Assembly (NCBI GenBank): GCA_913055845.1
Contig: CAJXKO010000024.1
Coordinates: 1-32,500, forward strand
Origin: an uncultured Bacteroidota bacterium
Lineage (GTDB): Bacteria; Bacteroidota; Rhodothermia; Rhodothermales; Salinibacteraceae
Length of the DNA stretch: 32,500 bases
Reading direction: 5' to 3'
In this document: positions 2,187 through 30,591 of the stretch, one piece after another
How the letters are laid out: the number at the start of each line of letters is the position of its first letter
How positions within the stretch are numbered: the first letter of the stretch is position 1
The notes under the pieces: generated by a model
Seen by the model: the letters and a program-made list of their open reading frames with translations, nothing else
Told to the model about the DNA's origin: nothing
Databases searched by the model: none
Position numbers and translations under genes: made by a program

Positions 2187-2207
2187 TACCCCAAGAGGGT
2201 ATGTTTG
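2187..2207 (+). promoter_or_regulatory. Candidate umuD promoter with overlapping inverted repeat
   Basis: A perfect 5-bp inverted repeat, TACCC-CAAGA-GGGTA (2187-2201), overlaps TATGTTTG (2200-2207), which fits the Bacteroidota -7 element TAnnTTTG. It lies 63 bp upstream of the umuD ATG. An operator overlapping a promoter is what LexA repression of an SOS gene would look like, but the LexA box of this lineage is not known to me and no matching -33 TTTG is seen at the expected distance. This is inference. Confidence 0.3.
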
Positions 2208-2269
2208 AAATATGTGTGCTGGTTGCTATGTTGGGTGACAGCCGCGTTTTCCAAAAGCCCCCACCCCCC

Positions 2270-2713
2270 ATGTCCGATCGTGCCCCCACGGTCACCGACG
2301 TGTACCAGGCCCGTCCGGAGGAGGCCTGTCCGGTGGCCATCTACCTCTCGCGCGTCCCCGCCGGGTTTCCTTCTCCGGCCGACGACTACGTGGAGCAGAC
2401 CATTGACCTAAACGAGCACCTCATCCGCCGGGAGGCCTCAACCTTCTTTGTGCGGGTGGCCGGACACTCCATGACCGACGCGGGCATCCACGACGGCGAC
2501 ATCCTGGTAGTGGACCGGGCCGTGGAGCCGACGGATGGATCGGTCGTCGTGGCCGCCCTCGACGGCGAGCTCACCGTCAAGCGCTACCGGGTGGGGGAAA
2601 AGCATGCTTCTCTCGTTCCCGAAAGCGAGGGCTACCCGTCGATTCCGATTCGGAAAGAGCAGGAACTCGTGGTGTGGGGTGTGGTGCGGCACGTCATTCA
2701 TGAGGTGTCGTAG
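2270..2713 (+). CDS. umuD: UmuD-type SOS mutagenesis protein (S24 self-cleaving protease)
   Basis: This 147-residue protein matches the UmuD/LexA C-terminal peptidase family. The self-cleavage site is the Ala31-Gly32 pair in VPAGFPSPADDY. The catalytic Ser67 lies in GHSMTDAGI and the general base Lys104 in LTVKRY. Length is close to E. coli UmuD and there is no DNA-binding domain, so it is not LexA. RecA-stimulated autocleavage yields UmuD', the accessory subunit of DNA polymerase V. I chose the ATG at 2270 because the UmuD-like N-terminus begins there; an in-frame ATG at 2201 would add 23 unlike residues. umuC follows 187 bp downstream, an unusually long gap for this pair. A possible operator/promoter lies at 2187-2207. 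Confidence 0.92.
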   Translation: MSDRAPTVTDVYQARPEEACPVAIYLSRVPAGFPSPADDYVEQTIDLNEHLIRREASTFFVRVAGHSMTDAGIHDGDILVVDRAVEPTDGSVVVAALDGELTVKRYRVGEKHASLVPESEGYPSIPIRKEQELVVWGVVRHVIHEVS

Positions 2714-2760
2714 CTCCAGGGGAGGAATGACCGTGCCGGGTCGGTTGGAGCGTAGAACAT

Positions 2761-2833
2761 GACGAGTGAGGCGTGAGGAGTGAAGCGTGAGACGTGAGGT
2801 GCAAAATCACGCATCACGATTCACGTATTACGA
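2761..2833 (+). repeat. Heptameric hairpin repeat between umuD and umuC
   Basis: The left arm (2761-2799) is a run of degenerate seven-base units of the form GAGGCGT (GAGGCGT, GAGGAGT, GAAGCGT, GAGACGT). After a short A-rich turn the right arm (2806-2833) is a run of the complementary heptamer (ATCACGC, ATCACGA, TTCACGT, ATTACGA). The arms can pair imperfectly in several registers. It is non-coding and sits in the umuD-umuC gap. It resembles the short intergenic heptamer repeats seen in some bacterial genomes; function unknown. Confidence 0.7.
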
Positions 2834-2900
2834 CCTCGCTCATCGGCTCGGACTCACTTGTTGTGCGTCAACCCTATCCATCCGCAGCGCCGCCTCTCCC

Positions 2901-4199
2901 ATGGACACCGCCTTCGCTCTCGTCGACTGTGAGAACTTTTACGTGAGCTGCGAGCGCGTCTTCGAGCCGTCGCTTCGGACCCGCCCGGTGGTCGTGCTGT
3001 CGAACAACGACGGCTGCGTGATCGCCCGGTCGCAGGCGGTCAAGGACGCGGGGATACCGATGGGGGCACCATACTTTCAGTGGGAGGAGCGGCTCGATGC
3101 GATGGGCGCGGCCGTACGGTCGAGCAACTATGCCTTGTACGGCGATATGTCGCGGCGCGTCATGCACGAGTTGGAGCAGGTGGCCCTCCGCCTCGAACGC
3201 TACTCGATCGACGAGGCCTTCCTGACGCTGCCGGCGCTAGAGCGCGATGAATTGTACGCGGTGGCGCAGCAACTCCAGCGACGGGTGGCCCGGCGGCAGG
3301 GCGTCCCCATACGGGTTGGCATTGGACCTACGAAGACGCTCGCAAAAGTGGCCGACGAAAAGGCGAAGGGCAATCGGCCGGTGGACACTACCCTGCCCCC
3401 GCCGGGCCGCGTGTATGTGTGTCCGGACGGAGAGGCCCGCACCGCCATGCTGCGCACGGTGCCGGTGGCGGAGCTGTGGGGCATTGGGGCTGCCTGGGCA
3501 GAGACCCTGCACGAGCACGGCGTCGAGACGGCGGAGCAACTGCGCCAACAGCCCGATTCCTGGCTCCGGCGTGTCCTCACGGTCGTCGGCCTCCGGCTCG
3601 CCACCGAGCTCCGCGGCCTCCCGTGCCTGGAACTAGAGGATGTGCCGGCGACGCGAAAAAGCCTCATCCGCAGCCGGTCGTTCTCCGGGCGTGTGACCGA
3701 CGAGCCGACCCTCCGGGAGGCCGTGGGCAAACACGCCCAGCGCGCCGCCGAGAAGCTGCGGGCCGAGGGCCTCGTGGCGGGCTACCTGGAAGTCTTTATC
3801 ACGACGAAGCGGTTCGGGGAGCCGCCCCATTACGCCAACGCGGCCGGGGGCACTCTGCGTCCGGTGACCCACCACACGCCGATTCTTCTCCGCCACGCCC
3901 GCCGCCTCTTGCGGATCATCTACCGGGACAGTCCCACCTACAAGAAGGCGGGCGTCATCCTACAGCAGCTTCGTCCCGAGACGCCTCGGCAGGGGCACCT
4001 TTTTGACGATCCCGATCCGGACGACGTGGCCCTCATGGACGCAGTCGATCAGCTCAACCGGACGATGGGCCGCGGCACCGTGGGCTTCGCGGCGGCCGGC
4101 GTGCGGGGTGAGCGCGACTGGACGATGAAACGAGAGCAGCGCTCACCGCACTACACAACGCAGTGGAGCGACCTACCGGTGGCCAAGGCGGAAGGGTAG
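2901..4199 (+). CDS. umuC: DNA polymerase V catalytic subunit UmuC (Y-family)
   Basis: This 432-residue protein is a full-length UmuC. The Y-family catalytic carboxylates are present: Asp9 in the ALVDCENFYVSCE motif and Asp104-Glu105 in YSIDEAFL. SNNDGCVIARS near residues 34-44 is the conserved finger motif of UmuC. The helix-hairpin-helix region (WGIGAAWAETL) and the little-finger domain follow, ending with the UmuC C-terminal region that binds UmuD'. It performs error-prone translesion synthesis during the SOS response. The ATG at 2901 gives the family N-terminus exactly; the frame is open upstream to 2787 but that stretch is the hairpin repeat and does not look coding. It forms an SOS unit with umuD and probably shares its promoter. 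Confidence 0.95.
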   Translation: MDTAFALVDCENFYVSCERVFEPSLRTRPVVVLSNNDGCVIARSQAVKDAGIPMGAPYFQWEERLDAMGAAVRSSNYALYGDMSRRVMHELEQVALRLERYSIDEAFLTLPALERDELYAVAQQLQRRVARRQGVPIRVGIGPTKTLAKVADEKAKGNRPVDTTLPPPGRVYVCPDGEARTAMLRTVPVAELWGIGAAWAETLHEHGVETAEQLRQQPDSWLRRVLTVVGLRLATELRGLPCLELEDVPATRKSLIRSRSFSGRVTDEPTLREAVGKHAQRAAEKLRAEGLVAGYLEVFITTKRFGEPPHYANAAGGTLRPVTHHTPILLRHARRLLRIIYRDSPTYKKAGVILQQLRPETPRQGHLFDDPDPDDVALMDAVDQLNRTMGRGTVGFAAAGVRGERDWTMKREQRSPHYTTQWSDLPVAKAEG

Positions 4200-4348: not shown

Positions 4349-6559
4349 ATGACCGCTTGCCTGCGCACCGGACGTGCTGCGCTCATCGCCGTGGTATGGG
4401 GAAGTGCCGTCCTGCTCGGACTGGGAGGGCCCTGGTCCGCTCAGGCTCAGACGACGGCCTCCGACGACCCGAGTCCCCACAGTGAGGCGACGCTAGTCAG
4501 CGAGCAGTCCGCGGTTGTGCCGGGTGAGCCGTTCACCGTGGCGCTCCGAATGACCATGGAGGACGGCTGGCACAGCTACTGGAAGAATCCGGGCGCGTCC
4601 GGCGAGGCCACGTCCATCAACTGGTCGCTGCCGGCCGGGTATAAGGCCGCAGAAATACAGTGGCCGTATCCCCACCAGATCCAGTTTGGGTCGCTCGTGA
4701 GCTACGGGTATTCCGACGAGGTCTTCCTCCTCACTGAAATTACGCCGCCCGATACACTCACGGCCGGAACGACGGTGACCCTCGACGGGACGGCGAGCTG
4801 GCTGATCTGTGAGGAAATTTGCCTCCCGGCCCGTTCGGACATTGCGCTGTCCCTTCCGGTAGCCAAGGAGACGCCGGAGCCGACCCAGTGGGCCGAGGCC
4901 TTCGAGCGGGCGCGCGCGAAGCATCCCACGCCCGTGGCCGAATGGTCAGTGGGTGCGGGGCGTAGCGGGGGGAAGTACCAGCTGCTGCTGAACGCCTCCG
5001 ACGGGGTTCAACCGGACCTGGAGGGGGCGCACTTCTACGCCGCCGAGCAGTCGGTCGTCGATCCCGGGGCGCCGCAGCCGGTGACGAAGAACGGGGACAC
5101 CTACGCAATTTCCCTCACGCAGTCGGAGTACGCGCAGGCGCCGGCCGAGCGACTACGGGGTGTACTGGTGGCGCCAGAGGGGGAGCACTGGGATCCGGAG
5201 GGCGACGTGCGTGCCATGCACATTGACGTGCCGGTCGACTCGAGCCTTTCGGTGGCCACGGCGACGGGCGCCTCCTCCTCGACCGCAGGAGGCGGCCTCT
5301 CGCTACCGTGGGCCCTCGCGTTTGCGTTTATCGGCGGCGTGTTGCTGAACCTGATGCCCTGCGTCTTTCCGGTGCTGTCGGTCAAGATCCTCGGCTTTGC
5401 GCAGGAGGCCGAGGAGGGAAGCGGCGCGATGAAACGCAACGGGCTGCTCTTTGGGGCGGGCGTGTTGGCGTCGATGTGGGTGCTGGCCGGAGCCCTTCTG
5501 GCGCTGCGGGCCGCGGGGAGTCAGATTGGGTGGGGCTTTCAACTCCAGTCGCCCGTCTTTATCGCCCTCATGACGATGCTCTTCTTTGGCATTGGGCTCA
5601 ACCTGCTGGGGACATTCGAGGTGGGCACGACGCTGATGAACTGGGGCGGTCGTATGCAGACGAGTACCTCCAGTAGTGGGGGCACGAGCGCCTTTCTAAC
5701 GGGTGTTCTGGCCACGGTCGTGGCTACGCCCTGCACGGCGCCGTTCATGGGGGCGGCCCTCGGCGTGGCCCTCACGCTCTCGGCAGTGGGGGCCCTGCTC
5801 ATCTTTACGGCGCTGGGCGTGGGGATGGCGACGCCTTACGTGATCCTCGCCACCACGCCGGCACTCCTAGACCGTCTTCCCCAACCCGGCGGGTGGATGG
5901 AGACATTGAAGCAGGCCTTCGCCTTCCCCATGTTCGCCACCGCCATTTGGCTGGTGTGGGTCTTTGGGCGGCAGACGAGCAACGGGGGGGTGGCCTTTCT
6001 GCTCGCCGGCCTCCTCCTCCTGGGCGTGGCGGCCTGGATTGTGCACCGATGGTCGCCCCCCCAGCTCTCACGGACGGCCACCGTGCTTTCGCGAAGCCTT
6101 GCCGGGGCCGCCCTCGTGGGGGGCATCGCCGTTGCGGTCATCGGGGCCGGGAGCGCGCCCGCCGACCGCACGACCCCCGCCACGACCAACGCGTCCGCTG
6201 CGGAGACCGCTTGGCGCTCCTACTCTTCCACGACGGTCGAGCAACTCCGGGCTGAGGGACGTCCGGTCTTCGTCGACTTTACCGCCGCCTGGTGCCTCAC
6301 CTGTCAGGTGAACAAGCGCCGCGTGTTGACGACGGAACCGATCCAGAAGGCCTTCGACGACAAGAACGTAGCGCTCGTGCGGGCCGACTGGACAAACCGC
6401 GACCCCGAAATCACAAAAGCGCTCCAGTCCCATGGGCGAAGTGGCGTGCCCGTGTACGTGCTGTATCCGGGCGATGGCTCCGCCCCCACGCTCTTGCCTG
6501 AGGTGCTTACGGACGACATCGTCCTGAATGCACTGGACGATCTACAGCCTTCGTCGTAG
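4349..6559 (+). CDS. DsbD/ScsB-type thiol:disulfide interchange protein
   Basis: This 736-residue membrane protein carries reducing power from cytoplasmic thioredoxin across the inner membrane. A signal peptide spans about 1-33. The periplasmic N-terminal DsbD-alpha-like domain runs to about residue 300 and has the redox pair Cys154/Cys158 in LICEEICLP. A membrane domain of about eight helices (320-600) has Cys338 in LMPCVFPVLS and Cys462 in TPCTAPFMG, the CcdA-like redox pair. The C-terminal thioredoxin-like domain has Cys649-Leu-Thr-Cys652. All six redox cysteines are present, so a complete three-stage relay is expected. The long N-terminal domain is closer to ScsB than to classic DsbD. An exported redoxin lies 114 bp downstream and is a plausible client. 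The family is certain; the exact symbol is not. Confidence 0.92.
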   Translation: MTACLRTGRAALIAVVWGSAVLLGLGGPWSAQAQTTASDDPSPHSEATLVSEQSAVVPGEPFTVALRMTMEDGWHSYWKNPGASGEATSINWSLPAGYKAAEIQWPYPHQIQFGSLVSYGYSDEVFLLTEITPPDTLTAGTTVTLDGTASWLICEEICLPARSDIALSLPVAKETPEPTQWAEAFERARAKHPTPVAEWSVGAGRSGGKYQLLLNASDGVQPDLEGAHFYAAEQSVVDPGAPQPVTKNGDTYAISLTQSEYAQAPAERLRGVLVAPEGEHWDPEGDVRAMHIDVPVDSSLSVATATGASSSTAGGGLSLPWALAFAFIGGVLLNLMPCVFPVLSVKILGFAQEAEEGSGAMKRNGLLFGAGVLASMWVLAGALLALRAAGSQIGWGFQLQSPVFIALMTMLFFGIGLNLLGTFEVGTTLMNWGGRMQTSTSSSGGTSAFLTGVLATVVATPCTAPFMGAALGVALTLSAVGALLIFTALGVGMATPYVILATTPALLDRLPQPGGWMETLKQAFAFPMFATAIWLVWVFGRQTSNGGVAFLLAGLLLLGVAAWIVHRWSPPQLSRTATVLSRSLAGAALVGGIAVAVIGAGSAPADRTTPATTNASAAETAWRSYSSTTVEQLRAEGRPVFVDFTAAWCLTCQVNKRRVLTTEPIQKAFDDKNVALVRADWTNRDPEITKALQSHGRSGVPVYVLYPGDGSAPTLLPEVLTDDIVLNALDDLQPSS

Positions 6560-6574
6560 CGGACCCGCTGTTGT

Positions 6575-6592
6575 CACGATCGTAGCATCGTG
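6575..6592 (+). other. Small perfect hairpin in the ScsB-redoxin gap
   Basis: CACGAT and ATCGTG form a perfect 6-bp stem around the six-base loop CGTAGC, 15 bp after the DsbD/ScsB stop. No T-run follows, so it is not a standard intrinsic terminator. It could protect the 3' end of the upstream message or mean nothing. Confidence 0.3.
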
Positions 6593-6673
6593 GGCCCAAC
6601 CTCGGCCTTGTTCCTCCGGTTTGGACTGCTGTTCTTTTCGTGTTCGGTTCCTTCACATTCACTCCGTCACGCC

Positions 6674-7318
6674 ATGATCCAACGCGCATTCCACACTACG
6701 TGGGCAACCCTCGCTCTTGCTCTGCTCACAGCCGTTGCGTTCGCCCCTACGGCCGCCGCCCAGACCGATCAGGCTGAGGTGGGCGCTTCCGCGCCGGGCT
6801 TCACCCTCACGGCGGCGGATGGGGACACGCACAGCTTGTCCGAGTTTCAGGGCAAGTACGTTGTCCTAGAGTGGCTCAACTTCGAGTGCCCGTTTGTTGG
6901 TAAGCACTACGGCAGCGGTCACATGCAGGAGCTCCAGAAGACCTATACCGAGAAGGACGTCGTGTGGCTTTCAATTGTCTCCTCGGCCCCGGGCAAGCAG
7001 GGCTACTATCCACCCGAGGAAATGGTGGCGCAGAAGGATAAGCATGACGGCAACATGACGGCGATTCTCATGGATCCGGACGGCACAGTGGGCAAAACCT
7101 ACGGTGCCACGGTGACGCCGCACATGTACATTATCAATCCGGACGGAAAGCTCGTCTATCGGGGGGGCATCGACGATAAGCCGACCACCGACGAGGCAGA
7201 CATCAAGGGGGCCACGAATTACGTAGAGAACGCGCTCAACGCGGTGATGAATGGGGAGGAGGTGAGCCCGAAGCAGGCCCAGCCCTACGGCTGTAGCATC
7301 AAGTACGCCACGAAGTAA
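6674..7318 (+). CDS. Exported redoxin / thioredoxin-like protein
   Basis: This 214-residue protein has a signal peptide (1-29, cleavage near TAAAQ) and an AhpC/TSA-Redoxin fold (about 36-185) with the motif NFECPFVGKHY, so it acts in the periplasm. The N-terminal active-site region has one cysteine, Cys72, followed by Pro rather than a CxxC pair. A second cysteine, Cys207, sits in the C-terminal tail YGCSIKY, a combination seen in a recognised redoxin-like family. A Cys72-Cys207 resolving disulfide is therefore plausible, giving peroxiredoxin-like or thiol-oxidoreductase activity. I chose the ATG at 6674 because it starts a clean signal peptide; the upstream frame is open but not signal-like. 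It lies behind the DsbD/ScsB gene, its likely electron donor, and ends at a strong terminator. Confidence 0.85.
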   Translation: MIQRAFHTTWATLALALLTAVAFAPTAAAQTDQAEVGASAPGFTLTAADGDTHSLSEFQGKYVVLEWLNFECPFVGKHYGSGHMQELQKTYTEKDVVWLSIVSSAPGKQGYYPPEEMVAQKDKHDGNMTAILMDPDGTVGKTYGATVTPHMYIINPDGKLVYRGGIDDKPTTDEADIKGATNYVENALNAVMNGEEVSPKQAQPYGCSIKYATK

Positions 7319-7686
7319 ACACCTGCCGCGTGCGGTGGATACGCATCGGCCGACCGGTCCAGGACAGGGCCGGTCGGCTATTTTTGTAGGCCGGTGGTCC
7401 GTGCCTAGTTGTTGCCTTTCCGCCACACTGGTCCCAACTACTGCCGGGGGACACCGTCGTCATTGCAGTTATTTAAAAAACCTTCCCTGGTAGATCCTGT
7501 TACTGCCTGCGATCAAGACCCCCGAAGCACATCCGCCCTTACCCTTCGAAGACCCGTCAGGCCGCAGGTCGTGCCGGGCGAAAATGCCGATCGCCCGGGA
7601 CGGCTGGTACATCTTTTGTAGATGCATGTCCGGGCGGGCATCATCCCACATCACATTTGTCTCACAACTCTACTCTTCTTGCTCCG
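7319..7686 (+). other. Intergenic region upstream of ugd, with structured leader
   Basis: After the terminator, no supported gene is seen up to 7686; short open frames here lack protein-like composition. An AT-rich patch (7469-7480) could belong to a promoter, but no clear -35/-10 or -33/-7 pair stands out. Closer to ugd are three consecutive inverted repeats: CCGGGCG/CGCCCGG (7574-7598), CATCT/AGATG (7610-7624), and a bulged stem over 7621-7645. They may form a structured 5' leader of ugd. Confidence 0.45.
7349..7385 (+). terminator. Rho-independent terminator after the redoxin gene
   Basis: A perfect 9-bp GC-rich stem (GCCGACCGG at 7349-7357 with CCGGTCGGC at 7370-7378) is followed at once by TATTTTT. 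It lies 30 bp after the stop codon and should end transcription of the DsbD/ScsB-redoxin unit. Confidence 0.92.
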
Positions 7687-9117: not shown

Positions 9118-10098
9118 ATGCCCCGCACCCTCATCACCGGCGGCGCCGGCTTCCTTGGCTCCCACCTCTGCGATCGCTTCATCGAGGAGGGCCACTCGGT
9201 CATTTGCATGGACAACCTCATCACGGGGGACACCGAGAACATTGAGCACCTGTTCGAGCTGGGACAGGACCGCTTCCGGTTCGTAGAGTACGACGTGACC
9301 GACTACCTGCACGTCAATGGCGATCTCGATTATGTTCTCCACTTTGCCAGCCCCGCCGCGCCGGACGACTACCTGGAGTATCCGATTCAGACGCTGAAGG
9401 TCGGGGCGCTGGGCACCCACAAGGCCCTCGGGTTGGCGAAGGCAAAGGATGCGCGCCTGCTTCTTGCCTCCACGAGCGAGGTGTACGGCGATCCGCTGGT
9501 GCATCCCCAGCCGGAGGACTACTGGGGCAACGTGAATCCGGTGGGCGAACGGGGCGTTTACGACGAGGCTAAGCGTTTTGCGGAGGCCCTCGCCATGGCC
9601 TACCACCGTTACCACGGGGTGGAGACCCGCATCGTACGCATCTTCAACACCTACGGCCCTCGCATCCGGGTGGACGACGGGCGGGCCCTACCCACGTTTA
9701 TGGCGCAGGCCCTGCGCGGGGAGCCGCTCACCGTGTACGGCGATGGGAGCCAGACGCGCGCCTTCTGTTACGTCGACGATCTGGTGGAGGGTATCTACCG
9801 GCTGCTGATGAGCGACGTATCGGACCCGGTCAACCTGGGCAATCCCGACGAGATTACGATCAAAGAGTTTGCGGAGGAGATCATCGAGGTGACCGGTAGT
9901 GACAGCGGCATCACCTACGAACCGCTCCCGGCCGATGACCCGCAGGTGCGGCAGCCTGACATTACGAAGGCGAAGGAGCACCTCGATTGGACCCCGCAGG
10001 TGGACCGACGGGAGGGCCTCCGCCGCACACTAGACTATTTCCGCAAGCAGCTCGGCATTCCGGCCCCGGCGGACGGAGAGGTAGGGAGCCAACCGTGA
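9118..10098 (+). CDS. uxs: UDP-glucuronate decarboxylase (UDP-xylose synthase)
   Basis: This 326-residue member of the extended SDR family starts with the NAD-binding motif [11 protein letters not shown] and has the catalytic Tyr148-x3-Lys152 in [12 protein letters not shown], with Thr119/Ser120 upstream. The [11 protein letters not shown] segment and the [15 protein letters not shown] segment are characteristic of UDP-glucuronate decarboxylases rather than simple 4-epimerases. It converts UDP-glucuronate to UDP-xylose and CO2. It is directly downstream of ugd in the same orientation, which supports this pathway. Its stop is only 15 bp from the stop of the convergent histidine kinase gene. 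No glycosyltransferase lies beside it, so the final polymer is unknown. dTDP-glucose 4,6-dehydratase-like activity is a less likely alternative. Confidence 0.88.
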
Positions 10099-10113: not shown

Positions 10114-12210
10114 TCAAGACGTGTCCTGGCGCAGGGGCTCCGCCGCGGGGAGGCGCACCGCAATATTGGTCCCCTCGTTCTTCTCGGTGTCTACCTGGAT
10201 GGAGCCGCCCATCTGGGTGACGGCCTCCTTCGTCACTGCGAGGCCGAGGCCCGTTCCCTCGTACTCCCGGCCCACGCCCTCGGAAGCCTGCTTGAACGCC
10301 TCAAAGAGGCCCGGCACGTTCTCGGGATGCATGCCGATGCCGGTGTCTGCAACCTCTACCACGACGGCGCTATCCACGGCACGGGCGTGGGCGTGTATGG
10401 TCCCACCCTCACCCGTGAATTTCACGGCATTGCTGAGCAGATTCTTAAGCACGACCTGAAGCCCATCTCGGTCGGCCCGGGCCCGGAGCGGTGTGTTGGG
10501 CACCTCGACCGAAAGGGAGAGGCCTGCGTTTTCGGCCTCCACCGCGAAGAGCTCGATGGCATTCTCGAGTTCGGTCACCACGTCGACTGCCTCGCGGCTC
10601 AGGTCCATCTCGCCCGCCTCGAGCTTCGAGAGGTTGAGAACGGCCTTGAGGGTGTCCAGGAGGCGACGGCCGCTTTTCTCAATCAGGCCTGCGAACCGAG
10701 CGATGGGGCTGGACCCGTCCTCATTCGTCTCAGCGGCCTCGCCGATAGACCGGGCAAATCCAATGATTGACGTAAGTGGGGTGCGGATCTCGTGGCTCAT
10801 GTTGGCGAGCAGGGCCGACTTGAGCTGGTTGGCGCGCTCGGCCTCGTCGCGGGCCGCTCGGAGCTCCTGGGTGCGCGCCTGGACGCGTCGTTCGAGCTCT
10901 TGCTCGCGTTCCTTCTCGGCCGTAATGTCTTCCTGCACTGACACGAAGTGTGTGATGGCACCTTCCTCACTCACGATCGGCGAGATGCGCCAGCGCACGT
11001 GGTAGGGCGTACCGTCCTTCTTGTAGTTCACCACTTCGTTGACGACGGAGGTGCCCTGAGAAAGACGACGCTTCAGCTGGTTGAGTTTGTCCCGGTTCGT
11101 GTCGGGTCCCTGGAACATGCGTAGGGTATTGCCGAGCATTTCCTCCTCGTCGTACCCCGTCATCTCGGACATGGCCTCATTGACGTACTGAATCGTGGGG
11201 CCGGGCGGATCGAGATTGGGACCCGTGATGACCACGCCCGTCTCGGCCCGCTCCACCGCGTCGGCCAGGAGCCGAACCCGCTCTTCGAGCCGTCGGCGTT
11301 CGGTGACGTCGCGGGAGATGCCGATGAACGTGCCCAGGTCGGTCTCCTCGGGCAGGCGACGGCCCCTCGACTCCAGGATGCACCAGCCCCCGTCGGCGTG
11401 CCGGAAGCGAAAGGTGGCAGTCGGCCGCCGCTTCGGATCCGCAAGTGCAGCCTCCATCTTTTCCTTGAGCTCCGGACGATCATCCGGGTGCACATGCTCC
11501 CAGATCGAGGTGCCTTCCAGTTCGTGTGGGGCGTACCCGAGTACTTCTGAGGCCGACGGACTTTCGAATTGGATCGTCCCGTCGGGGGCGAGGACCGTCA
11601 CCACGTCCGTGATATTGTCCACGAGCGCCTCAAAGGCCTCGGTACGAGCCAGGAGCTGCTCTTGTAGTGCCTCGCGTCGGTTCAACTCCAGCCGTAGCTC
11701 GATCTCCGTACGGGCCGAGGCCGCAAAATCCTGGGCCGTGGTCACGGCCTCGTCCGTCCAGGTGCGCGGCTCCCATTCCACGAGGCAAAAGGTGCCCACA
11801 GTGTGGCCCGCCGAGGTAACAAGGGGAACGCCCAGGTAGGCCTCGATTCCGTACTCCTCAACGGCGGGGTGTCCGCCGAGATCGGGATCCGTCCCGACAT
11901 CGTCAATAACAAGTGGCTCGTTGCGGTCGAGGGTGTATGCACAAATCGAGTGCTCGATGGGCGTTTTTCGCGTCGAGTTCAGCGGCTCGGGAAGGCCCAC
12001 GCACCCGCGGAGAAACTGACCGTTCTCGGTTAAGAGGCTCACGAATCCGGCTGCGGCCCCCACCGCCTGCGCGGCCTGATGGGTCAGTCGATCGAAGTTC
12101 TCGACGGTGTTCTCCGCCAGCAGTCCCGTCTTTCGAAGTTCGCCGATCCGGTCCTCGTCGTAGAGCACGGAGGGAACATTCGGAAGTGTCGAGTCGGGAG
12201 AAGGGGACAT
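10114..12210 (-). CDS. GAF-PAS-PAS sensor histidine kinase
   Basis: This 698-residue soluble kinase has no signal peptide or membrane span. In order it has a GAF domain (about 30-175), a PAS domain (190-305), a LOV-like PAS (315-435), a coiled linker, a HisKA domain with phospho-accepting His473 in MSHEIRTPL, and an HATPase with Asn590/Asn594, DTGIG (622-626) and GTGLGL (652-657). The second PAS keeps the LOV-type NYKKDG and VSVQEDIT motifs, but the photoactive cysteine position is Leu363 (GNTLRMFQ instead of GRNCRFLQ). There is no receiver domain and no response regulator in the window. I chose the ATG at 12210; a TTG at 12231 would add seven residues. The BLUF gene lies 86 bp upstream in the same direction, so the two may be co-transcribed. 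Its catalytic core is a close paralogue of the giant kinase upstream. Confidence 0.93.
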   Translation of the reverse strand: MSPSPDSTLPNVPSVLYDEDRIGELRKTGLLAENTVENFDRLTHQAAQAVGAAAGFVSLLTENGQFLRGCVGLPEPLNSTRKTPIEHSICAYTLDRNEPLVIDDVGTDPDLGGHPAVEEYGIEAYLGVPLVTSAGHTVGTFCLVEWEPRTWTDEAVTTAQDFAASARTEIELRLELNRREALQEQLLARTEAFEALVDNITDVVTVLAPDGTIQFESPSASEVLGYAPHELEGTSIWEHVHPDDRPELKEKMEAALADPKRRPTATFRFRHADGGWCILESRGRRLPEETDLGTFIGISRDVTERRRLEERVRLLADAVERAETGVVITGPNLDPPGPTIQYVNEAMSEMTGYDEEEMLGNTLRMFQGPDTNRDKLNQLKRRLSQGTSVVNEVVNYKKDGTPYHVRWRISPIVSEEGAITHFVSVQEDITAEKEREQELERRVQARTQELRAARDEAERANQLKSALLANMSHEIRTPLTSIIGFARSIGEAAETNEDGSSPIARFAGLIEKSGRRLLDTLKAVLNLSKLEAGEMDLSREAVDVVTELENAIELFAVEAENAGLSLSVEVPNTPLRARADRDGLQVVLKNLLSNAVKFTGEGGTIHAHARAVDSAVVVEVADTGIGMHPENVPGLFEAFKQASEGVGREYEGTGLGLAVTKEAVTQMGGSIQVDTEKNEGTNIAVRLPAAEPLRQDTS

Positions 12211-12296
12211 GGAAGAAAAAGCCGTTAGCAATTCTGCGAAGACGTGGGAGGGGGAGCACGTCGCCCCAATCTCCGAACGCAGGAGTCAGGGCACGC

Positions 12297-13025
12297 TCAA
12301 TCCGCGGGCCCGCCGCTGCGAAACCGTTTGAGGGCCGCGATGACCTCGCTAATGGGCTCAGCGGCTGCGGGAAGGTTGCCGGACTGGAGAAAAGACGAGA
12401 GGCCGTCCAGATCGACAAAGGCCCCTGGACGTTCCAGGCCCATCTCCCAGTCGGGGAAGGTGCGTTTGGGAGGACGGGCGGTGAGGAGGGTCTCGATGCT
12501 CGTGTGGCGCGTGTCCGCCTGGATGGTAGCGTAGAGGGTGCGGACGGCGGGCTCGGGGCCTTCGAGCACCTGTAGAAACCGGTTCCCCGCGTAGAGCAGG
12601 AGCCCCGTTACCCCGAGTCGTTCGTTCTTGGCACGGGCCGTCTGCAGCAGTTCACGGAGATCCGCCTCGCTCATGGGACGCGTCGCCGTACTCTCGTAGA
12701 CCACTTGTACGAGCGCCTCGGAGGATGCCCCAGACATTGTGTCGTTGGCTGTGCCCGACGTGCGTTCGGCGAACCGTCGAATGCGGGCGGCCAGGCCCTT
12801 GGCGCTCCGGTCCATGAGGGCACTGTCGCCTTGCTGTCGGGAGGCCATAAAGAGTTGGGCCTCCCCCAGCCCCTGCCGGGTGGCCACCCAGGGAGCACCG
12901 AGTGCCCTGGACGGAGCCGGTAGGTCGGCGGCTTCAGCCTCTGCCACGGCGGTTTCCACAAACTCGCGTTCGTCGGCCGTCCAGTCGCCGTCGAAATGAA
13001 CAAGGGACGAGGGGGCAGCAGCCAT
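12297..13025 (-). CDS. BLUF-domain blue-light receptor with N-terminal extension
   Basis: Residues 101-200 of this 242-residue protein form a BLUF domain, which binds FAD and senses blue light. The key residues are present: Tyr110 (QVVYES), Asn134 (AKNERLGVTG), Gln152 (RFLQVLEG), Trp193 and Met195 (FPDWEMGL). The domain should therefore be photoactive. Residues 1-95 are an acidic, mostly helical-looking extension containing EREFVETAVAEAEAADL and ARIRRFAER that I do not recognise. Residues 200-242 may be the usual C-terminal BLUF helices. An internal ATG at 12737 (Met97) could give a stand-alone 146-residue BLUF protein, so two products or a different true start are possible. No output domain (EAL, GGDEF, cyclase) is fused, so signalling must be through a partner. 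The downstream histidine kinase is the obvious candidate. Confidence 0.88.
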   Translation of the reverse strand: MAAAPSSLVHFDGDWTADEREFVETAVAEAEAADLPAPSRALGAPWVATRQGLGEAQLFMASRQQGDSALMDRSAKGLAARIRRFAERTSGTANDTMSGASSEALVQVVYESTATRPMSEADLRELLQTARAKNERLGVTGLLLYAGNRFLQVLEGPEPAVRTLYATIQADTRHTSIETLLTARPPKRTFPDWEMGLERPGAFVDLDGLSSFLQSGNLPAAAEPISEVIAALKRFRSGGPAD

Positions 13026-13341
13026 GATTACGGGGCGGAAACATGCGAGGAGTTGAGAATGCTGTCCCGTGTTGAAGGTCGTCGGACACTGGGGGGCGTC
13101 GGCCCTTTCGGGGACAGGGGGGCTGGTCGGGCGCGACGGGGCGGGCAGCGAGACGATCGCACTGCGCGGGCCAATCACGACCGAGATCGCATGTCAACAT
13201 CAACAAATTTTGTGCCTCCGTGGCTCGGTCGCTCGCGTGGCGCGGTCGATTTTTTGGTGACGTAACAGAGGTGGCGGGCTTGCGGGAGGCGGGAGGGCTG
13301 CGAACGGTAGATCGGGGGACACAACGCAGCGGCTCTCTTTC
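13026..13341 (-). other. Intergenic region between the giant kinase and the BLUF gene
   Basis: No gene is supported in these 316 bp. On the minus strand, upstream of the BLUF start, there is a perfect TTGACA -35-like hexamer (plus-strand TGTCAA at about 13193-13198), but no good -10 hexamer follows at 16-18 bp. Nearby is an 11-bp AT-rich inverted repeat, ACAAA-T-TTTGT (13203-13213), in otherwise GC-rich DNA, which could be a regulator site. The BLUF gene may have its own promoter here. Confidence 0.35.
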
Positions 13342-16300
13342 TCAGTCCTGGGAGACACGAGAAGCATCCGCCAAGTCTGAGTCGGTTGCGTGTGCGGGCC
13401 GCGACCGCGGCAGTCGGACGGTAAACCGGCTCCCGGTTCCCTTCTCGGTCTCGACCTCGATGGAGCCCCTCATCTGGTCGACTGCCTGTTGGGTCACCGT
13501 GAGGCCCAGCCCTGTTCCCTCGTAGGTGCGGCCTATGCCCTCGGATTCTTGTCGGAATGGCTTGAACAGATTCCTCACCTTTTCCGGGGGCATCCCAATA
13601 CCAGTATCCTCAACGTCCAGAATCACGGCATCCGCGTCGTTCCGGACGCGTACGCTCACCTCCCCTCCCGCCTCGGTGTACTTGATCGCGTTCGAGATGA
13701 GGTTGTGAAGGATGATCTGCACACCGCCAGCATTAGCACAGGCGTTGGGGCATGATTCGTCGCGGTCGAGCCGAAGGGTGAGGTCGGCCTCTCGGGCCTG
13801 GGAAGCAAACCGCTCGACGGCGGCTTTGGCCTCTTCGGCCAGGTCGACCGTTCCTATATCCAACTCCATCTCGCCGGTCTCGAGCTTCGAGAGATTGAGC
13901 ACGGCGTCGAGCGTTTCCAGCAGGCGCTGGCCACTCTGCTCGATTAGCCCCGCGAACTGACTGAGGGTAGACAGGTCGGAGGCCTCCAAACGCGTTTCCA
14001 ACTTCGCCACTTCCGCGTCGATCGCTTCGGCGAACCCGATGACGGAGGTAAGGGGGGTGCGGATCTCGTGGCTCATGTTGGCGAGGAAGGCCGACTTCAT
14101 TCGGTTGGCGTGCTCGGCTTCGACCTTGGCCGTGCGGAGTTCTTCCTCGCGCTCAAGGCGGTTCAGGATGAGGGCGGCATAGCTCGCCAGCACCTCGAGG
14201 AGACGCTGGTCGAACGCATCGATGCCCCCGACCTCAAGGCTTCCCACCGAGATGAGTCCGTAGGAGCCCATCGGCACATACGCCGTTGCCCGGATATCGC
14301 CCCGGTCCATCGACTTCACAACGGCGGAAAGATCGTCGTAGATGCGAGTATTTCCGGTTCGGTAGGCCGCCGCCGCGGGCGTATCCCCCTCAATCTCGTA
14401 GGCTGGGCGCTCTGGCATGTGCTCCTGGACCGTCGGCGAGACCTGGCTGGGTAGGAGCTGACCGTCCTGGGCCAGGCGGATCGTCGTTGCTGAGTAGCCC
14501 AGCGTCTCGTCGACCAGGGTCACGAGACGCGCTCCGAGGGTCTCTTCGTCGTCGGCCTGCAGCAACTGGTTGGTTGCCTCGTAGAGCCGTCCCATCTTTT
14601 CTTGGCGGTCCTGGAGGGATTGCTCCTGCCGCTTTCGATCAGTAACGTCCCGGCCTATTCCCACCGCTCGCAGCTCTCCGTTCGGATGGGAGACGCGGTT
14701 GCCAATGAATTCGTAGGGCACGCGTGTCCCGTCTTTGCAGACAAGCAGTGCCTCCAACTGCGCGTAGCCTTCTTCGAAGCCGTGTTCGATGGTCGCAGTG
14801 AGCCGTGGCCAGTCCGCCTCCGGCACGAGGTCGAACGCGCTCATGTCGGCAATCTCTGCGTCGGTGTAGCCGGTCACCTCGGAAAAGCGGCGGTTCCAGC
14901 GCTGGAAGCGTCCGTCCTCGTCGAGGACAAAGAAGAGGTCGTCGATGGCATCGAGCAGGCGGTCGGTGTACTCGCGGTAGCGTTCGAGCTGGCGACGGTT
15001 TTGCTCCCGTTCCGTCACGTCCCGAATCAGGGTGCGTGCGACGGTCTCGTCCCCAATCTCGGTCGTGCTGGCCGACACTTCGCCCCAAAACGCCGGGCCG
15101 TCGACGCGATCGTACCGGGAGACCCCGCGATAGAACTCTCCTGCCCGCAAGGCCTCCAATTTCTCCTGGGCTGTGTCCTGCTCCTCCGGAACGTGTAAGT
15201 CGAAAACCGATCGGCCTTCCAGGTTCTCGACGTCGCGGCCGAAAAGCGATTCGGCCTGCGGATTGGCCTCCCGGATGCGCCCTTCCAGGTCGTGAACCAG
15301 GATGGCATTGTTGGAGTCGCGGAACAGCGACCGGTACCGCTCCCGGCTACGACGCAGTTTCTGCTCGGCCTGCTTGCGATCGTGGATGTCGAGGTGGATG
15401 CCCGCGGCCCGGGTTGGGGTGCCGTCGTCGTCACGGTCGATCACCTTGCCAATCGTCTGGATCCACTTCCAGTCGCCGGACTTGGTGCGCATCCGAATCT
15501 CGGGAGCATAGGTGTTGGTCTCGCCTGCGAGGTAGGCCTCCAGGGCCTTCATCGCTCGGGGTAGATCTTTGGAATGGACGAGGGTCTCCCACGTGCTGAA
15601 CTGGAAGGCCAACTCGTCCCGCGAGTAGCCGAGCATCTCGGCCCACTGCCGATTGAACAACACCTGGTTGGTGTCGAGGTCCCAGTTCCACGTGCCGATG
15701 TCGCCGCCCTCGACGGCCATGGAGAGTTGCTCCCGGCTACGCTGCAGCTCCGCCTCTGCTTCTTTCCGCTCGGTAATTTCTTGCAGGGCTCCAGCAACCT
15801 TGATAACCTCCCCGTCTCGTTTCCGGGCCGGTGCCCCCACTGCCCGTACCCATCGTTGATTCTCGTTAGCGGTGACGAGCGGAAGTTCGAGGTCGTAGGG
15901 GATTCCTTCTGCTGCACACCGCTCGAACGCGTCGCGAAGTTCGGAGCGAGCCTCCGGCGGAAAAAACTCAAGCGACGCCTCGACACCCACCTCGGTGCCG
16001 GGGGGAACTTCGTAGATTCGGTACGTCTCTTCCGACCAGGTGGTCTCTCCCGACTGCAGGTCTACCTCCCAGGCCCCCGCCAGCCGCTGGGTCTGCTCCA
16101 GCAGGTTCCGTTGTCGGCGAAGGGTCTCTTCCTGGTTCCGCTGCTCGGTCACGTCCCGCTGAATGGAAACCCAGTGCTCGGTTTCACCGGCGTCGTTCCG
16201 TACCGGCGCCAGGGTCCACTGCACGAGATACGGGCTTCCGTCCTTTCGGTAGTTGATGGTCTCGCCCTCCCACGACGTTTCTGCCTCCAAGGCCGCCCGG

Positions 16301-17553
16301 AGCGAGTCCAACACCGCCTGGTCCGTCTCCGGCCCCTGCAACATCCGGGGCGTTTTCCCCAAGAGTTCCGACTCCTCGTAGCCCGTCATCGCCTCGAAGG
16401 CAGCGTTGGCGTACACAATGCGCGGGCCAGGTTCCTCTAGCGGCTCGGCCTCCGTAATGAGCACGGCTTCCTGGGACTGCCCCACCGCTTTCGACAAGAA
16501 CCGGCGCTCTTGTTGCTGTTTCCGTCGCCGGAGTTCCTCCTCGGTCACGTCGGTCAGAACGACAAGGCGCCCACCGTGCCTGTGCCCAAACGTGCTTTCG
16601 TCGACCCGGTAATATCGGGGGACATCGGGCGCGGCCTCGTCGACCTGGATGACATTCGATCCGTGTTCTAGAGGCTCGTGGGATAAGGCGTTCGCCACCG
16701 CCGGTAGAATCTCTGCTAGGGGGATGTCGATCGTCTCCGGCGTGTCCAGCGGGGGGAAAAGAGCGGCGGCACGGTCATTGTAGTTTCGCACCCGCCCTGC
16801 GTCGGAGAGTACAAGAACCGGGTTCCCGCTCCGAGCCGTCTGCTCGATCTCCTCAAACCGGCCGGTACTCACGAACAGCACGCCGAGGACAAAGGCCGCT
16901 ACGCCAACCGGCTCGTGGCTGATGTCCAGCAGCCATGGACTGACGTATCCGATCGCGTTGGCCAGGGCTGGCAGGGCAGTGAGCCCGAACAGGATTCCCA
17001 GCGGTCGCCCTCCTACCTGGACCCGGCGGAGCGACTCGTACAGCATAAAGAAGCCGACCGCCGCCAGCGCGTAGGACAGCCCCGTGGTGATCCAGTATAG
17101 GGCGTGGTGGTCCACCGCCAGGTGGGGAAACGGACGCCCGACCGCCGCGGCCGAAAAGTAGATCCCGTGCCATGCGTTGGTGCACTTCGTCAGCGTGACG
17201 GCTCCCAGTACGACGATCGCTACTCCGCGGGCGGCCCGGCTCCGGTGCAGTGAGCGCCCGCTGTAGGCAGAGCAGAAGTAAAGCCAGGCCCACACCGTGG
17301 CAAATCCGACGATGAGGCCCACCTCGTAGAGCCGAACTTTGAGGAAGGGAGTGGGGGCGAGAAGCATGACGGCGTGGGCTGCGGCCCAGCCGCCGCTGGT
17401 AAGCAGGAGCGCCGTGAGTCCATGACGCACGTCCGGAGCCGAGATCTGGCGGGTGCGCCAGAGTCCTCCCAGGCAAATCAGGGCCGCGGCGGCGAAAAGC
17501 GTCGTATATCCGACGAAAAGAATACTGGGAGCCAAGAGTGGCTGGGAGGTCAT
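13342..17553 (-). CDS. Giant 7TM / multi-PAS / GAF sensor histidine kinase
   Basis: This 1403-residue membrane kinase starts with seven predicted helices (about 8-230), like the HisKA_7TM sensor domain. Six PAS-type domains follow at about 240-340, 355-470, 485-595, 605-730, 738-850 and 860-975. A GAF domain lies at 985-1135. The HisKA domain has phospho-accepting His1162 in ANMSHEIRTPL, and the HATPase has HNLISNAIKYT, DTGIG (1316-1320) and GTGLGL (1346-1351). The second PAS is LOV-like (GKTPRMLQGPETD, NYRKDGSPY, VSIQRDVT), but the photoactive cysteine is Pro402. There is no receiver domain, so a separate response regulator is needed and none is nearby. The kinase core is a close paralogue of the GAF-PAS-PAS kinase downstream. 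Such multi-PAS kinases are common in halophilic archaea and Salinibacter; the ligand is unknown. Confidence 0.93.
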   Translation of the reverse strand: MTSQPLLAPSILFVGYTTLFAAAALICLGGLWRTRQISAPDVRHGLTALLLTSGGWAAAHAVMLLAPTPFLKVRLYEVGLIVGFATVWAWLYFCSAYSGRSLHRSRAARGVAIVVLGAVTLTKCTNAWHGIYFSAAAVGRPFPHLAVDHHALYWITTGLSYALAAVGFFMLYESLRRVQVGGRPLGILFGLTALPALANAIGYVSPWLLDISHEPVGVAAFVLGVLFVSTGRFEEIEQTARSGNPVLVLSDAGRVRNYNDRAAALFPPLDTPETIDIPLAEILPAVANALSHEPLEHGSNVIQVDEAAPDVPRYYRVDESTFGHRHGGRLVVLTDVTEEELRRRKQQQERRFLSKAVGQSQEAVLITEAEPLEEPGPRIVYANAAFEAMTGYEESELLGKTPRMLQGPETDQAVLDSLRAALEAETSWEGETINYRKDGSPYLVQWTLAPVRNDAGETEHWVSIQRDVTEQRNQEETLRRQRNLLEQTQRLAGAWEVDLQSGETTWSEETYRIYEVPPGTEVGVEASLEFFPPEARSELRDAFERCAAEGIPYDLELPLVTANENQRWVRAVGAPARKRDGEVIKVAGALQEITERKEAEAELQRSREQLSMAVEGGDIGTWNWDLDTNQVLFNRQWAEMLGYSRDELAFQFSTWETLVHSKDLPRAMKALEAYLAGETNTYAPEIRMRTKSGDWKWIQTIGKVIDRDDDGTPTRAAGIHLDIHDRKQAEQKLRRSRERYRSLFRDSNNAILVHDLEGRIREANPQAESLFGRDVENLEGRSVFDLHVPEEQDTAQEKLEALRAGEFYRGVSRYDRVDGPAFWGEVSASTTEIGDETVARTLIRDVTEREQNRRQLERYREYTDRLLDAIDDLFFVLDEDGRFQRWNRRFSEVTGYTDAEIADMSAFDLVPEADWPRLTATIEHGFEEGYAQLEALLVCKDGTRVPYEFIGNRVSHPNGELRAVGIGRDVTDRKRQEQSLQDRQEKMGRLYEATNQLLQADDEETLGARLVTLVDETLGYSATTIRLAQDGQLLPSQVSPTVQEHMPERPAYEIEGDTPAAAAYRTGNTRIYDDLSAVVKSMDRGDIRATAYVPMGSYGLISVGSLEVGGIDAFDQRLLEVLASYAALILNRLEREEELRTAKVEAEHANRMKSAFLANMSHEIRTPLTSVIGFAEAIDAEVAKLETRLEASDLSTLSQFAGLIEQSGQRLLETLDAVLNLSKLETGEMELDIGTVDLAEEAKAAVERFASQAREADLTLRLDRDESCPNACANAGGVQIILHNLISNAIKYTEAGGEVSVRVRNDADAVILDVEDTGIGMPPEKVRNLFKPFRQESEGIGRTYEGTGLGLTVTQQAVDQMRGSIEVETEKGTGSRFTVRLPRSRPAHATDSDLADASRVSQD

Positions 17554-17904: not shown

Positions 17905-18951
17905 CTACGCTTTGCGAATGCGAGGGCCATCTGTCATCTGAACCACGCGCTGCGGGAAGGGAATCTCGATGCCGGCCTCTCTGAACCGGGCGAGGGCACG
18001 TCGGTAGACGGCGTCTCGGACCGATCGCTTCCCACGAGGAGCGTCGATCCACACCAGTACCTGGAGGACGATGGCATTATCCCCGAGAGTGCGCACATTT
18101 ACCTCCGGTGTGGGCGTCGACAGAATTCGGGGCAGACCGCCAATGACGTCGTGCAGAATGGTGGTGGCCTCCGTGAGATCCGTATCGTACGCCACGCCAA
18201 TCTCCAGGTTGATCCGGGTTTTTTGCTCCGGAAGCATGTGGTTGACAATGACTTCCGTCCCGAGCACATCGTTGGGAATCATCACGATCTCGTTGTCCCG
18301 CGTGCGAATAACCGTTTTGTGCAGGTTGATTGCGAGAACGTCTCCCAGGTATCCGCCCACCTCAATTCGGTCGCCGACGCGGAAATTGGGGTCGGCCGTG
18401 AGGGTGACCCCCGCCAGGACGTTGGAGAGGACTGTCTTGGCGGCGAGGGCCACGGCCAGGCCCACGATGCCCATCGATGCGAGAAATGCCGTTACCTGGA
18501 TGCCGAGTTCACGTAGCGCAACCATCGTGCCCACGATCCAGATTACGTAGACGGCTGTCAGGTCCATCAGCCGGACGATTCGCTCGTCGATGTCGGTATC
18601 GGTTCGCTCGGCGAGCGGAAGCCCGTACTCCCGGATGAGGTTCTTGACCAGGCTCGCCAGAATCCAGGTGCCGGTGAGTACAAAGATTGCCTGTTGCGCT
18701 CCCTCCCACTGCCCGAACTGCTCACGGATCTGCGGGATGCGGTACAGGGCGTAGTTGACGGAGACGAGGGCCACCAGCACGCTGATGGGGGGACCCAGCA
18801 CGCGGACCAAGACTCCGTCGAGACGGAACCGGCCCCGGTCGGCTTTACGGCCTAGCCAGCGGAGCCCGTGGTACAGGAGAAAGGCCCCGGAAATTCCAGC
18901 CGCGACGATGGCGAGGGACACGATAATATTGTTGGGGGAGATCCCGTTCAT
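17905..18951 (-). CDS. MscS-family mechanosensitive channel
   Basis: This 348-residue inner-membrane protein has about five transmembrane segments (8-28, 50-70, 88-104, 130-148, 155-185). The last is the small-residue-rich pore helix (GIVGLAVALAAKTVLSNVLAG) followed by ADPNFRVGDRIEVGG, the hallmark entry to the MscS beta domain. The cytoplasmic alpha/beta domain continues to the end. The channel releases solutes upon hypo-osmotic shock, fitting a halophile that may face dilution. It has two more helices than E. coli MscS, placing it with the mid-size YbdG/YnaI-like forms. A likely promoter lies at 18997-19025. It reads toward the giant kinase gene but a 351-bp gap makes co-transcription uncertain. 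Confidence 0.93.
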   Translation of the reverse strand: MNGISPNNIIVSLAIVAAGISGAFLLYHGLRWLGRKADRGRFRLDGVLVRVLGPPISVLVALVSVNYALYRIPQIREQFGQWEGAQQAIFVLTGTWILASLVKNLIREYGLPLAERTDTDIDERIVRLMDLTAVYVIWIVGTMVALRELGIQVTAFLASMGIVGLAVALAAKTVLSNVLAGVTLTADPNFRVGDRIEVGGYLGDVLAINLHKTVIRTRDNEIVMIPNDVLGTEVIVNHMLPEQKTRINLEIGVAYDTDLTEATTILHDVIGGLPRILSTPTPEVNVRTLGDNAIVLQVLVWIDAPRGKRSVRDAVYRRALARFREAGIEIPFPQRVVQMTDGPRIRKA

Positions 18952-28617: not shown

Positions 28618-28741
28618 AGGGGGCGAGGGTTGCTGCGGTGGACTAGGTCGTCGGTAGTACGTCGTGAATAGTACAAACAATCAAACGGAGCGAACAGTGC
28701 GAAGACCCACAAGTCCTCCGAATTGTTGCAGATGTGTTTCG

Positions 28742-28753
28742 GTTGTGCACAAC
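28742..28753. promoter_or_regulatory. 12-bp perfect palindrome in the hemH-Kelch gap
   Basis: GTTGTGCACAAC is a perfect palindrome in the 254-bp divergent region, about 130 bp from the hemH start and 120 bp from the Kelch start. Palindromes of this size also occur by chance, so an operator role is only a suggestion. A TATAAG -10-like hexamer (28813-28818) toward the Kelch gene lacks a clear -35. Confidence 0.25.
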
Positions 28754-28871
28754 GGTAACGAGCGTAGACCGTCGGGGAGGGCCGCTGGCCCAGAAAAACA
28801 CCTGCACCGCTATAAGATATGCACTTCGCGGCGAGTTTCTTCGCACTCGGTCCTTGAATGAACGCAGAATC

Positions 28872-29897: not shown

Positions 29898-29949
29898 CGG
29901 CCCGCCCGCCTTGTGTTCGGTTGTTACCCCCTCATCTCCCGTCAACGCT

Positions 29950-30591
29950 GTGATCATTGACGTGTGCGCAGACATTGCCTGCCCATGGTGTTATGTGGGA
30001 CGGGCCCGACTCGCGGAAGTCCCTGAGCAGCGTCCAGCCCTCGATGTGACGCTCCAGTGGCGCCCTTTCCAGCTCCAGCCCGATCTGCCGTCCATGGGGC
30101 GTAACTTCCGCACTGTGCTCGAGGAAAGGTTTGGTGGTTGGGACCGCGCGCAAAACATGTTCGACCGCATTCAGCGGATGAGGAAAGAGGAAGGGCTCAC
30201 GTTTGATTTTGAGGGGATCAAGATTGCGCCGAACACTGCCGATGCGCACCGGCTGGTCCTCTGGGCAGACGAGCAAGGTGTTGGGGATGCCGTGGCTACC
30301 GCGCTGTTCGAGGTCTATTTCTCGGAGGGGCGGAACGTCTCTGATCAGGCCGTGCTTGTGGACTGTGCTAATGAGGCCGGGCTTTCCGTGGAGAGCGCAC
30401 AGGCACTTCTCGAAAAGGCAGAGTACGCCCGTGAGGTTCAGGAGAGTCAGCAGGAGGCGCAGCAGCGGGGCATCACGGGGGTTCCATGCTACGTCTTTGA
30501 TGGGGACCGTGCCGTGAGGGGGACGCAGCGTGCAGGGGTCCTAACGGAAGCCCTCGACGTGGCCGTGGTTGAAGCGCCCGCCGACGGGTAG
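29950..30591 (+). CDS. DsbA-family oxidoreductase, FrnE-like
   Basis: This 213-residue protein has a thioredoxin-fold start (IIDVCADIACPWCYVGRARL) with the CPWC pair at residues 11-14. A helical insertion follows, and the cis-proline is Pro179 in GITGVPCYVFDG. This layout fits the FrnE/2-hydroxychromene-2-carboxylate isomerase branch of the DsbA family. There is no signal peptide, so it should act in the cytoplasm, perhaps in disulfide exchange or isomerisation under oxidative stress. The start is a GTG at 29950, since no ATG gives the family N-terminus. Cys180 next to the cis-proline is an extra thiol of unknown meaning. It follows the Kelch gene by 52 bp. Confidence 0.88.
   Translation: MIIDVCADIACPWCYVGRARLAEVPEQRPALDVTLQWRPFQLQPDLPSMGRNFRTVLEERFGGWDRAQNMFDRIQRMRKEEGLTFDFEGIKIAPNTADAHRLVLWADEQGVGDAVATALFEVYFSEGRNVSDQAVLVDCANEAGLSVESAQALLEKAEYAREVQESQQEAQQRGITGVPCYVFDGDRAVRGTQRAGVLTEALDVAVVEAPADG

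Follow-up and report, generated by a model that had tools for sequence, protein, structure and literature searches.

The contig CAJXKO010000024.1 of an uncultured Bacteroidota bacterium of the Salinibacteraceae, a relative of salt-loving species (assembly GCA_913055845.1, here genome G000), was analysed over its entire length of 32,500 nucleotides, which is referred to as the window (contig C24 of G000). It carries a block of three genes, all read from the minus strand, that encode in order a seven-transmembrane (7TM) sensor histidine kinase, a BLUF photoreceptor protein and a second histidine kinase, denoted K2. The order, strand and coordinates agreed with those given in the initial annotation. 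The block is bounded by genes for an MscS-type channel and a NAD-dependent epimerase, which we take to be UXS, and contains the following features.

17905..18951, minus strand: MscS-type channel, upstream boundary of the block (Pfam, synteny)
13342..17553, minus strand: 7TM / multi-PAS / GAF sensor histidine kinase, 1403 amino acids (Pfam)
16129..16491, minus strand: flavin-PAS-like domain of the 7TM kinase (best PDB match 3ewk; Pro for the LOV Cys)
12297..13178, minus strand: BLUF photoreceptor open reading frame (ORF) as read earlier, from a GTG start; the likelier start is the ATG at 13025
12762..13007, minus strand: N-terminal domain of the BLUF protein (predicted beta-alpha-beta-beta-beta-alpha, without a Pfam family)
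12438..12713, minus strand: BLUF domain (PF04940, 103 bits)
10114..12210, minus strand: K2, a GAF-PAS-PAS-HisKA-HATPase kinase, from an ATG start; the mechanical ORF runs from the TTG at 12231
10909..11280, minus strand: LOV-like PAS domain of K2, its second PAS (PDB matches mostly LOV-type)
9118..10098, plus strand: NAD-dependent epimerase, downstream boundary of the block (Pfam, synteny)

The BLUF domain matched PF04940 with 100-103 bits against a cut-off of 25. All of the key residues were found as claimed, with Tyr, Asn, Gln, Trp and Met being invariant in 23 of 23 aligned BLUF sequences and aligning to the structures of BlrB and Tll0078; the photochemical roles of the Tyr, Asn, Gln and Trp/Met positions are established for this family. 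The protein likely starts at ATG 13025, since both a BLUF pseudogene and an intact BLUF paralogue in a second genome of the genus, G011, begin at the matching place. Within the first 96 residues from this ATG lies a conserved domain of about 85 residues, which is shared by related BLUF proteins and occurs elsewhere without BLUF. The initial annotation had described a BLUF protein with no output domain; in view of this separately occurring domain, with its own predicted fold, that description was not confirmed, and we reject the view of the protein as a short BLUF lacking a second domain.

The N-terminal domain is the least expected part of the find. None of its 13 members was matched by a Pfam family below E 0.1, and a sequence search of the PDB gave no match worth the name. 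The model of the full-length BLUF protein predicts a beta-alpha-beta-beta-beta-alpha fold, with ten-residue pLDDT means of 67-95 over residues 11-90. Searching the order with a profile of the 13 sequences placed the domain at 35 sites, up to six per genome, in 17 out of 114 genomes (lower bounds, at most 48 candidates being scored per genome). When genomes were sampled evenly across the phylum, 3 of 296 contained it, again a lower bound with at most 18 candidates scored per genome. It stands alone, as in a protein of 87 amino acids (L283), is fused to BLUF, or is fused to a helix-turn-helix (HTH) of the AraC type, which it precedes in two G047 genes (L287 and L294; HTH_18 with 97 and 88 bits). 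The AraC HTH fusion points to a general regulatory domain. Amplification of the domain to 5-6 places per genome was observed in one genus, in G016 (L288, L295, L299 and L302) and G022 (L290, L297, L300 and L303).

The structure of the N-terminal domain was also modelled from five sequences (mean pLDDT 74) and compared using Foldseek. The first seven matches were ribosome factors of the hibernation promoting factor (HPF)/YfiA type, with a best E of 5e-3, probabilities of 0.90-1.00 and TM scores of 0.44-0.59 by query length, and no match fell below E 1e-3. Homology with HPF was rejected, the hhalign probability against 19 HPF sequences being 0.4% with no Pfam match, which leaves at best a resemblance of fold. 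We class the domain as a regulatory one not yet described, whose fold is HPF-like at most. A literature search found no paper joining BLUF with hibernation promoting factor. G000 has a canonical HPF gene, and in several genomes a second, weaker Ribosomal_S30AE match is present beside the canonical one (L278, on contig C72 of G000, and relatives).

Both kinases have the domains previously assigned to them. Pfam identified HisKA_7TM (58.7 bits), PAS_3 (202.7), GAF_2 (32.7), HisKA (54.8) and HATPase_c (99.5), with several PAS domains, in the 7TM kinase, and GAF, PAS, PAS, HisKA and HATPase_c in K2 (705 amino acids). The H, N, G1 and G2 boxes that mark HisKA-type histidine kinases occur in each of them. 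Neither was matched by Response_reg, so that the absence of a receiver domain was confirmed and neither is a hybrid kinase. Moreover, no receiver domain was found among the 33 ORFs scanned in the window, smaller ORFs falling outside the scan, which indicates that the target regulator is not encoded next to the block. The two kinases had been called paralogous. This applies to the kinase core that they have in common, at 55% identity, and to one PAS domain, at 41%, but a core of this type is found in many kinases of these genomes. The gap of 86 bp given between the BLUF and K2 genes is correct provided that K2 begins at ATG 12210, and 316 bp lie between the 7TM kinase and the likely BLUF start. 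Between positions 9900 and 18000, scans gave no sigma-70-type promoter (1.1 ± 1.1 in shuffled sequence) and seven terminator-like sites (5.6 ± 2.4 in shuffles, thus not above chance), and are uninformative on co-transcription.

One PAS domain in each kinase resembles a LOV domain. Among the 60 of 158 PDB matches listed for the second PAS of K2, most are LOV-type photoreceptors or constructs derived from them (best 9vf7, 7.4e-22), and Leu occupies the position of the adduct Cys. For the 7TM kinase PAS the best match was 3ewk (6.8e-28), presumably the redox sensor MmoS, followed mostly by LOV entries, with Pro replacing the Cys. Cys-less LOV domains (LOV*) are defined, in the available text of PMC4682037, by nine other LOV-conserved residues. 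When mapped by eye, 5/9 of these are kept in K2 and 6/9 in the 7TM kinase; the other defining residues are changed, and the two domains were rejected as strict Cys-less LOV domains. These PAS domains may sense redox state through flavin.

Conservation of the block was compared within the family and the genus, several of the genomes being incomplete drafts (G011 is 83% and G023 62% complete). BLUF occurs in 8 of the 27 genomes searched as the family and in 2 of the 13 genomes of the genus, namely G000 and G011; the remaining 11 include two that are only 62% and 83% complete. In G004 the matched ends of MscS and UXS are 44 bp apart and the block is absent. The block is likewise absent from the site in G003, where the MscS gene is interrupted, and in G005, G006 and G010, in which the MscS match was not found. 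The flanking genes lie apart on the stretches examined from G001, G007, G009, G012 and G013, which are uninformative on the site, and G002 and G008 were outside the comparison. The pattern marks the block as a probable lineage-specific addition between MscS and UXS, or as one that has been lost several times. The G003 MscS gene (L101, 4640-6481) is split by an inserted stretch that contains an ORF of transposase-like appearance by eye.

The counterpart in G011 is divided between two contigs, of which the first carries MscS, a BLUF remnant and K2, and the second a 7TM kinase, an intact BLUF gene and UXS. In the remnant the start and the last part are in different frames and the middle is missing. 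In the BLUF tree it groups with the window BLUF (support 94/91, the remnant filling only 41% of the columns), and the intact G011 BLUF, which stands directly behind the 7TM kinase with a gap of 101 bp, groups with a second BLUF of G000 on contig C140 (support 96/95). The K2 proteins of G000 and G011 share 79% identity, and the latter retains the kinase boxes, with an H-box that reads HEVRTP. Linkage of BLUF and K2 is thus shared with a second species and probably predates the G000/G011 split. The check for conservation of the pair beyond one strain gave a mixed result, as the BLUF gene has decayed in G011 and the other genomes of the genus show no BLUF. Furthermore, the 7TM kinases of the window, of G011 and of G003/G010 form one unresolved group, so that the tree does not separate a single from a double origin of the 7TM-BLUF pairing.

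To place this adjacency against BLUF genes in general, loci from named genomes (the best 80 of 438 relatives) were searched with a model for which 34 kinase cores from the family were used and by which distant kinases may be missed; the kinase counts given below for other loci and stretches of the family and order rest on the same model. A kinase was present anywhere on the examined DNA at 8 of these 80 loci, and lay co-directionally within 500 bp at just one, the G011 contig (L111). Without the four loci whose BLUF carries the N-terminal domain, 0/76 had a co-directional kinase within 500 bp and 2/76 had an oppositely oriented one within that distance, while the closest kinase in the same direction lay at 639 bp; 73 of these 76 loci have at least 500 bp on both sides. 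In parallel, no kinase was found on 22 stretches from the family and order (243.5 kb) that were not chosen for kinases, several of which are themselves BLUF or N-terminal domain loci.

Two further arrangements of BLUF with kinase elements were found in the order. In G352, which belongs to another family, a response regulator (L304, 7389-6646; Response_reg 87 and Trans_reg_C 90 bits), a HAMP-HisKA-HATPase kinase (6639-5083) and a BLUF protein (5079-4696) form a row in one direction on the minus strand (4696-7389), the ORFs lying 6 and 3 bp apart; the starts are mechanical and the real gaps may be larger. In G023, a single ORF of 1125 residues (L065, 4700-8074), open at the contig end, encodes GAF, PAS, PAS, an acidic low-complexity linker, BLUF (106 bits) and HATPase_c (38.9 bits, cut-off 26.4). 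Pfam found no HisKA in this fusion, and BLUF stands where HisKA is expected. A response regulator adjoins it in divergent orientation (Response_reg 101 and Trans_reg_C 90 bits). A direct relationship between the fusion and K2 was considered and rejected, the GAF-PAS-PAS part being 58% identical over 161 residues to another kinase of the family compared with 27% over about 390 residues to K2. Because it is closer to other kinases than to K2, the fusion is a parallel arrangement and not a joined form of the BLUF-K2 pair.

We favour, tentatively and with slightly less than even confidence, the reading that the block is a module, specific to this lineage, which feeds light into two-component signalling and in which the BLUF protein would act in trans on a neighbouring kinase. 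The domains, the gene order, the conserved residues, the linkage in a second species and the further BLUF-kinase arrangements of the order were observed directly. The reading also draws support from the retained kinase boxes, from the BLUF paralogue directly behind a 7TM kinase in G011, from the rarity of kinases at the 76 comparison loci and on the 22 stretches, and from the precedents of PixD with PixE and of the PYP operons described below. It is established for the family that blue light alters the network of flavin adenine dinucleotide (FAD), Tyr and Gln in the BLUF domain. In the window protein, the N-terminal domain, the C-terminal helices or both would receive such a change, after which the protein would act in trans on a neighbouring histidine kinase. 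It would probably dock on the PAS or DHp region of that kinase, whereby the flow of phosphate to a response regulator encoded elsewhere would become light-dependent. As the kinases retain inputs of their own (GAF, PAS and 7TM), BLUF would modulate rather than switch them. By analogy with PixD and its partner, a light-dependent modulator of the neighbouring kinase is the most likely role of the BLUF protein. We infer the physical contact, the direction of the effect, the kinase concerned and the role of the N-terminal domain. K2 had been proposed as the natural partner; it is not favoured over the 7TM kinase, which is as good a candidate, since K2 persists without an intact copy of this BLUF in G011 and the 7TM relative there directly precedes the intact BLUF paralogue.

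Several observations weigh against an action of BLUF on these kinases. K2 of G000 and G011 has a dN/dS of about 0.05 (dS 2.8, saturated), a sign of purifying selection despite the decayed BLUF gene, and the combination of a BLUF pseudogene with an intact K2 in G011 indicates that K2 does not need this BLUF protein. The nearest relatives of the 7TM kinase are found in G003 and G010, genomes without BLUF, and the 316 bp between the 7TM kinase and BLUF genes are long enough for BLUF to have its own promoter. Kinases are also missing around most other BLUF genes of the order: 26 of 27 loci, with flanks of up to 1.5 kb, have none, the exception being G352 (the 27 are a subset of the profile matches, and three overlap another). 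None was found on the 5.8-kb contig C140 of the second G000 BLUF, within the 12-17 kb examined around the N-terminal domain BLUF genes of G020, G024 and G026, or in the 11 and 15 kb around the plain BLUF genes of G023 (C89) and G054. The G352 row and the G023 fusion lend support to BLUF control of histidine kinases in general. However, they differ in kinase class and so back the general idea and not the BLUF-K2 pair, and the fusion, having no HisKA and, by eye, a HATPase without the usual G boxes, may be non-working as a kinase.

A partner encoded elsewhere, which BLUF would address via its N-terminal domain, with the kinases as accidental company in an accessory block inserted between MscS and UXS, is a real possibility that we consider on balance doubtful. 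It is consistent with the occurrence of the N-terminal domain without BLUF, mostly also without kinases (one lies within about 1.5 kb at 2 of 24 such loci), with its fusion to the AraC-type HTH, with the lack of a kinase on the examined DNA for 4 of 7 BLUF copies that carry the domain, and with the persistence of K2 in G011 without an intact BLUF. Accidental company is, however, argued against by the presence of two different BLUF paralogues beside kinases, with the same flanking genes, in two species, and by the recurrence of BLUF-kinase arrangements in the order.

It is improbable, in our assessment, that the kinases sense on their own through the Cys-less LOV-like PAS domains (redox, or light by flavin reduction) while BLUF detects light independently and in parallel, the genes being regulated in common. 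The PDB matches to LOV and other flavin-type PAS entries agree with such sensing, as does the Cys-less LOV-like domain of haloarchaeal BAT, which binds flavin and, according to the available text of PMC4682037, is photoreduced only slowly in the wild type and faster in a triple mutant. Against it, only five (K2) and six (7TM kinase) of the nine LOV-defining residues are retained in the alignment as read by eye, and flavin binding by the window kinases is hypothetical. Light control of ribosome hibernation through a divergent HPF/YfiA domain is suggested by the seven leading Foldseek matches, yet their E values, the hhalign result and the lack of Pfam or PDB sequence support, together with the AraC HTH fusion and the canonical HPF gene already present in G000, render it highly improbable.

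Elsewhere in the window, a UmuDC-like pair, consisting of a Peptidase_S24 protein and an adjoining Y-family polymerase with a DUF4113 tail, occupies positions 2201-4199 on the plus strand. ORFs at 28734-29897 and 28858-30591 (plus strand), with Pfam matches to Kelch repeats and a DSBA-like domain, overlap in two frames and may represent two neighbouring genes with mechanical ORF starts.

Among known systems, the proposed action in trans on a two-component-type partner resembles that of PixD, which holds and releases the response regulator-like PixE in Synechocystis (PMC5899715, available text). PixE is not a kinase, whereas a kinase would be the partner here, and the PixD chain is short (about 140-150 residues in the structures) and has no such N-terminal domain. 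Assuming that a PixE-like partner would be encoded nearby, no regulator-like protein was found among the 33 window ORFs scanned, and it could lie elsewhere. BLUF units within sensor kinases exist but are less characterised, as described in the portion of PMC6798134 available; they share the putative use of BLUF as a histidine kinase input and differ in that BLUF lies inside the kinase chain, whereas the window BLUF is encoded on its own. Nearer to them is the fusion of G023, which however lacks HisKA. The description of the architecture as unusual therefore holds for a separate BLUF beside a co-directional kinase, given the 76 comparison loci, but not for BLUF-linked sensor kinases as such, which are already in print.

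Short BLUF proteins such as BlsA, and PapB is another, have no known enzymatic domain and act through partners, as proposed here by analogy, but the window protein has its additional N-terminal domain. According to the parts of PMC4844311 (2014) available, most BLUF proteins are short ones, with only helical flanks around the BLUF core, and partners had been identified for few bacterial LOV and BLUF proteins. Haloarchaeal BAT-LOV* similarly lacks the Cys, for which the 7TM kinase has Pro and K2 Leu, but further LOV-defining residues are changed in the window kinases. The available text of PMC12826048 counts 17 PYP photoreceptor operons containing HisKA and HATPase genes, which share with this block a soluble blue-light receptor encoded beside kinase genes and differ in the photoreceptor family. 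A stand-alone BLUF protein that pairs with a histidine kinase was not described in the literature listings searched, which is weak evidence of absence, as the reading covered passages from few of the listed papers.

More broadly, it is possible, though rather unlikely, that the order has repeatedly recruited BLUF as a light-responsive third component of ordinary two-component systems: as a separate protein beside multi-sensor kinases here, at the end of the row in G352, and within a kinase-like chain in place of DHp in G023. The N-terminal domain would then be a coupling element particular to this lineage, able to attach either to a light sensor or to a DNA-binding output. The three arrangements offer ready-made pairs for testing, the G352 row being the cleanest, and the N-terminal domain represents a regulatory domain without a Pfam entry that reaches up to six copies per genome. 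A trans-acting BLUF protein would, if the reading is true, provide a plug-in part for optogenetics and would show how light control can be added to a sensor kinase that already exists, with no need to rebuild it.

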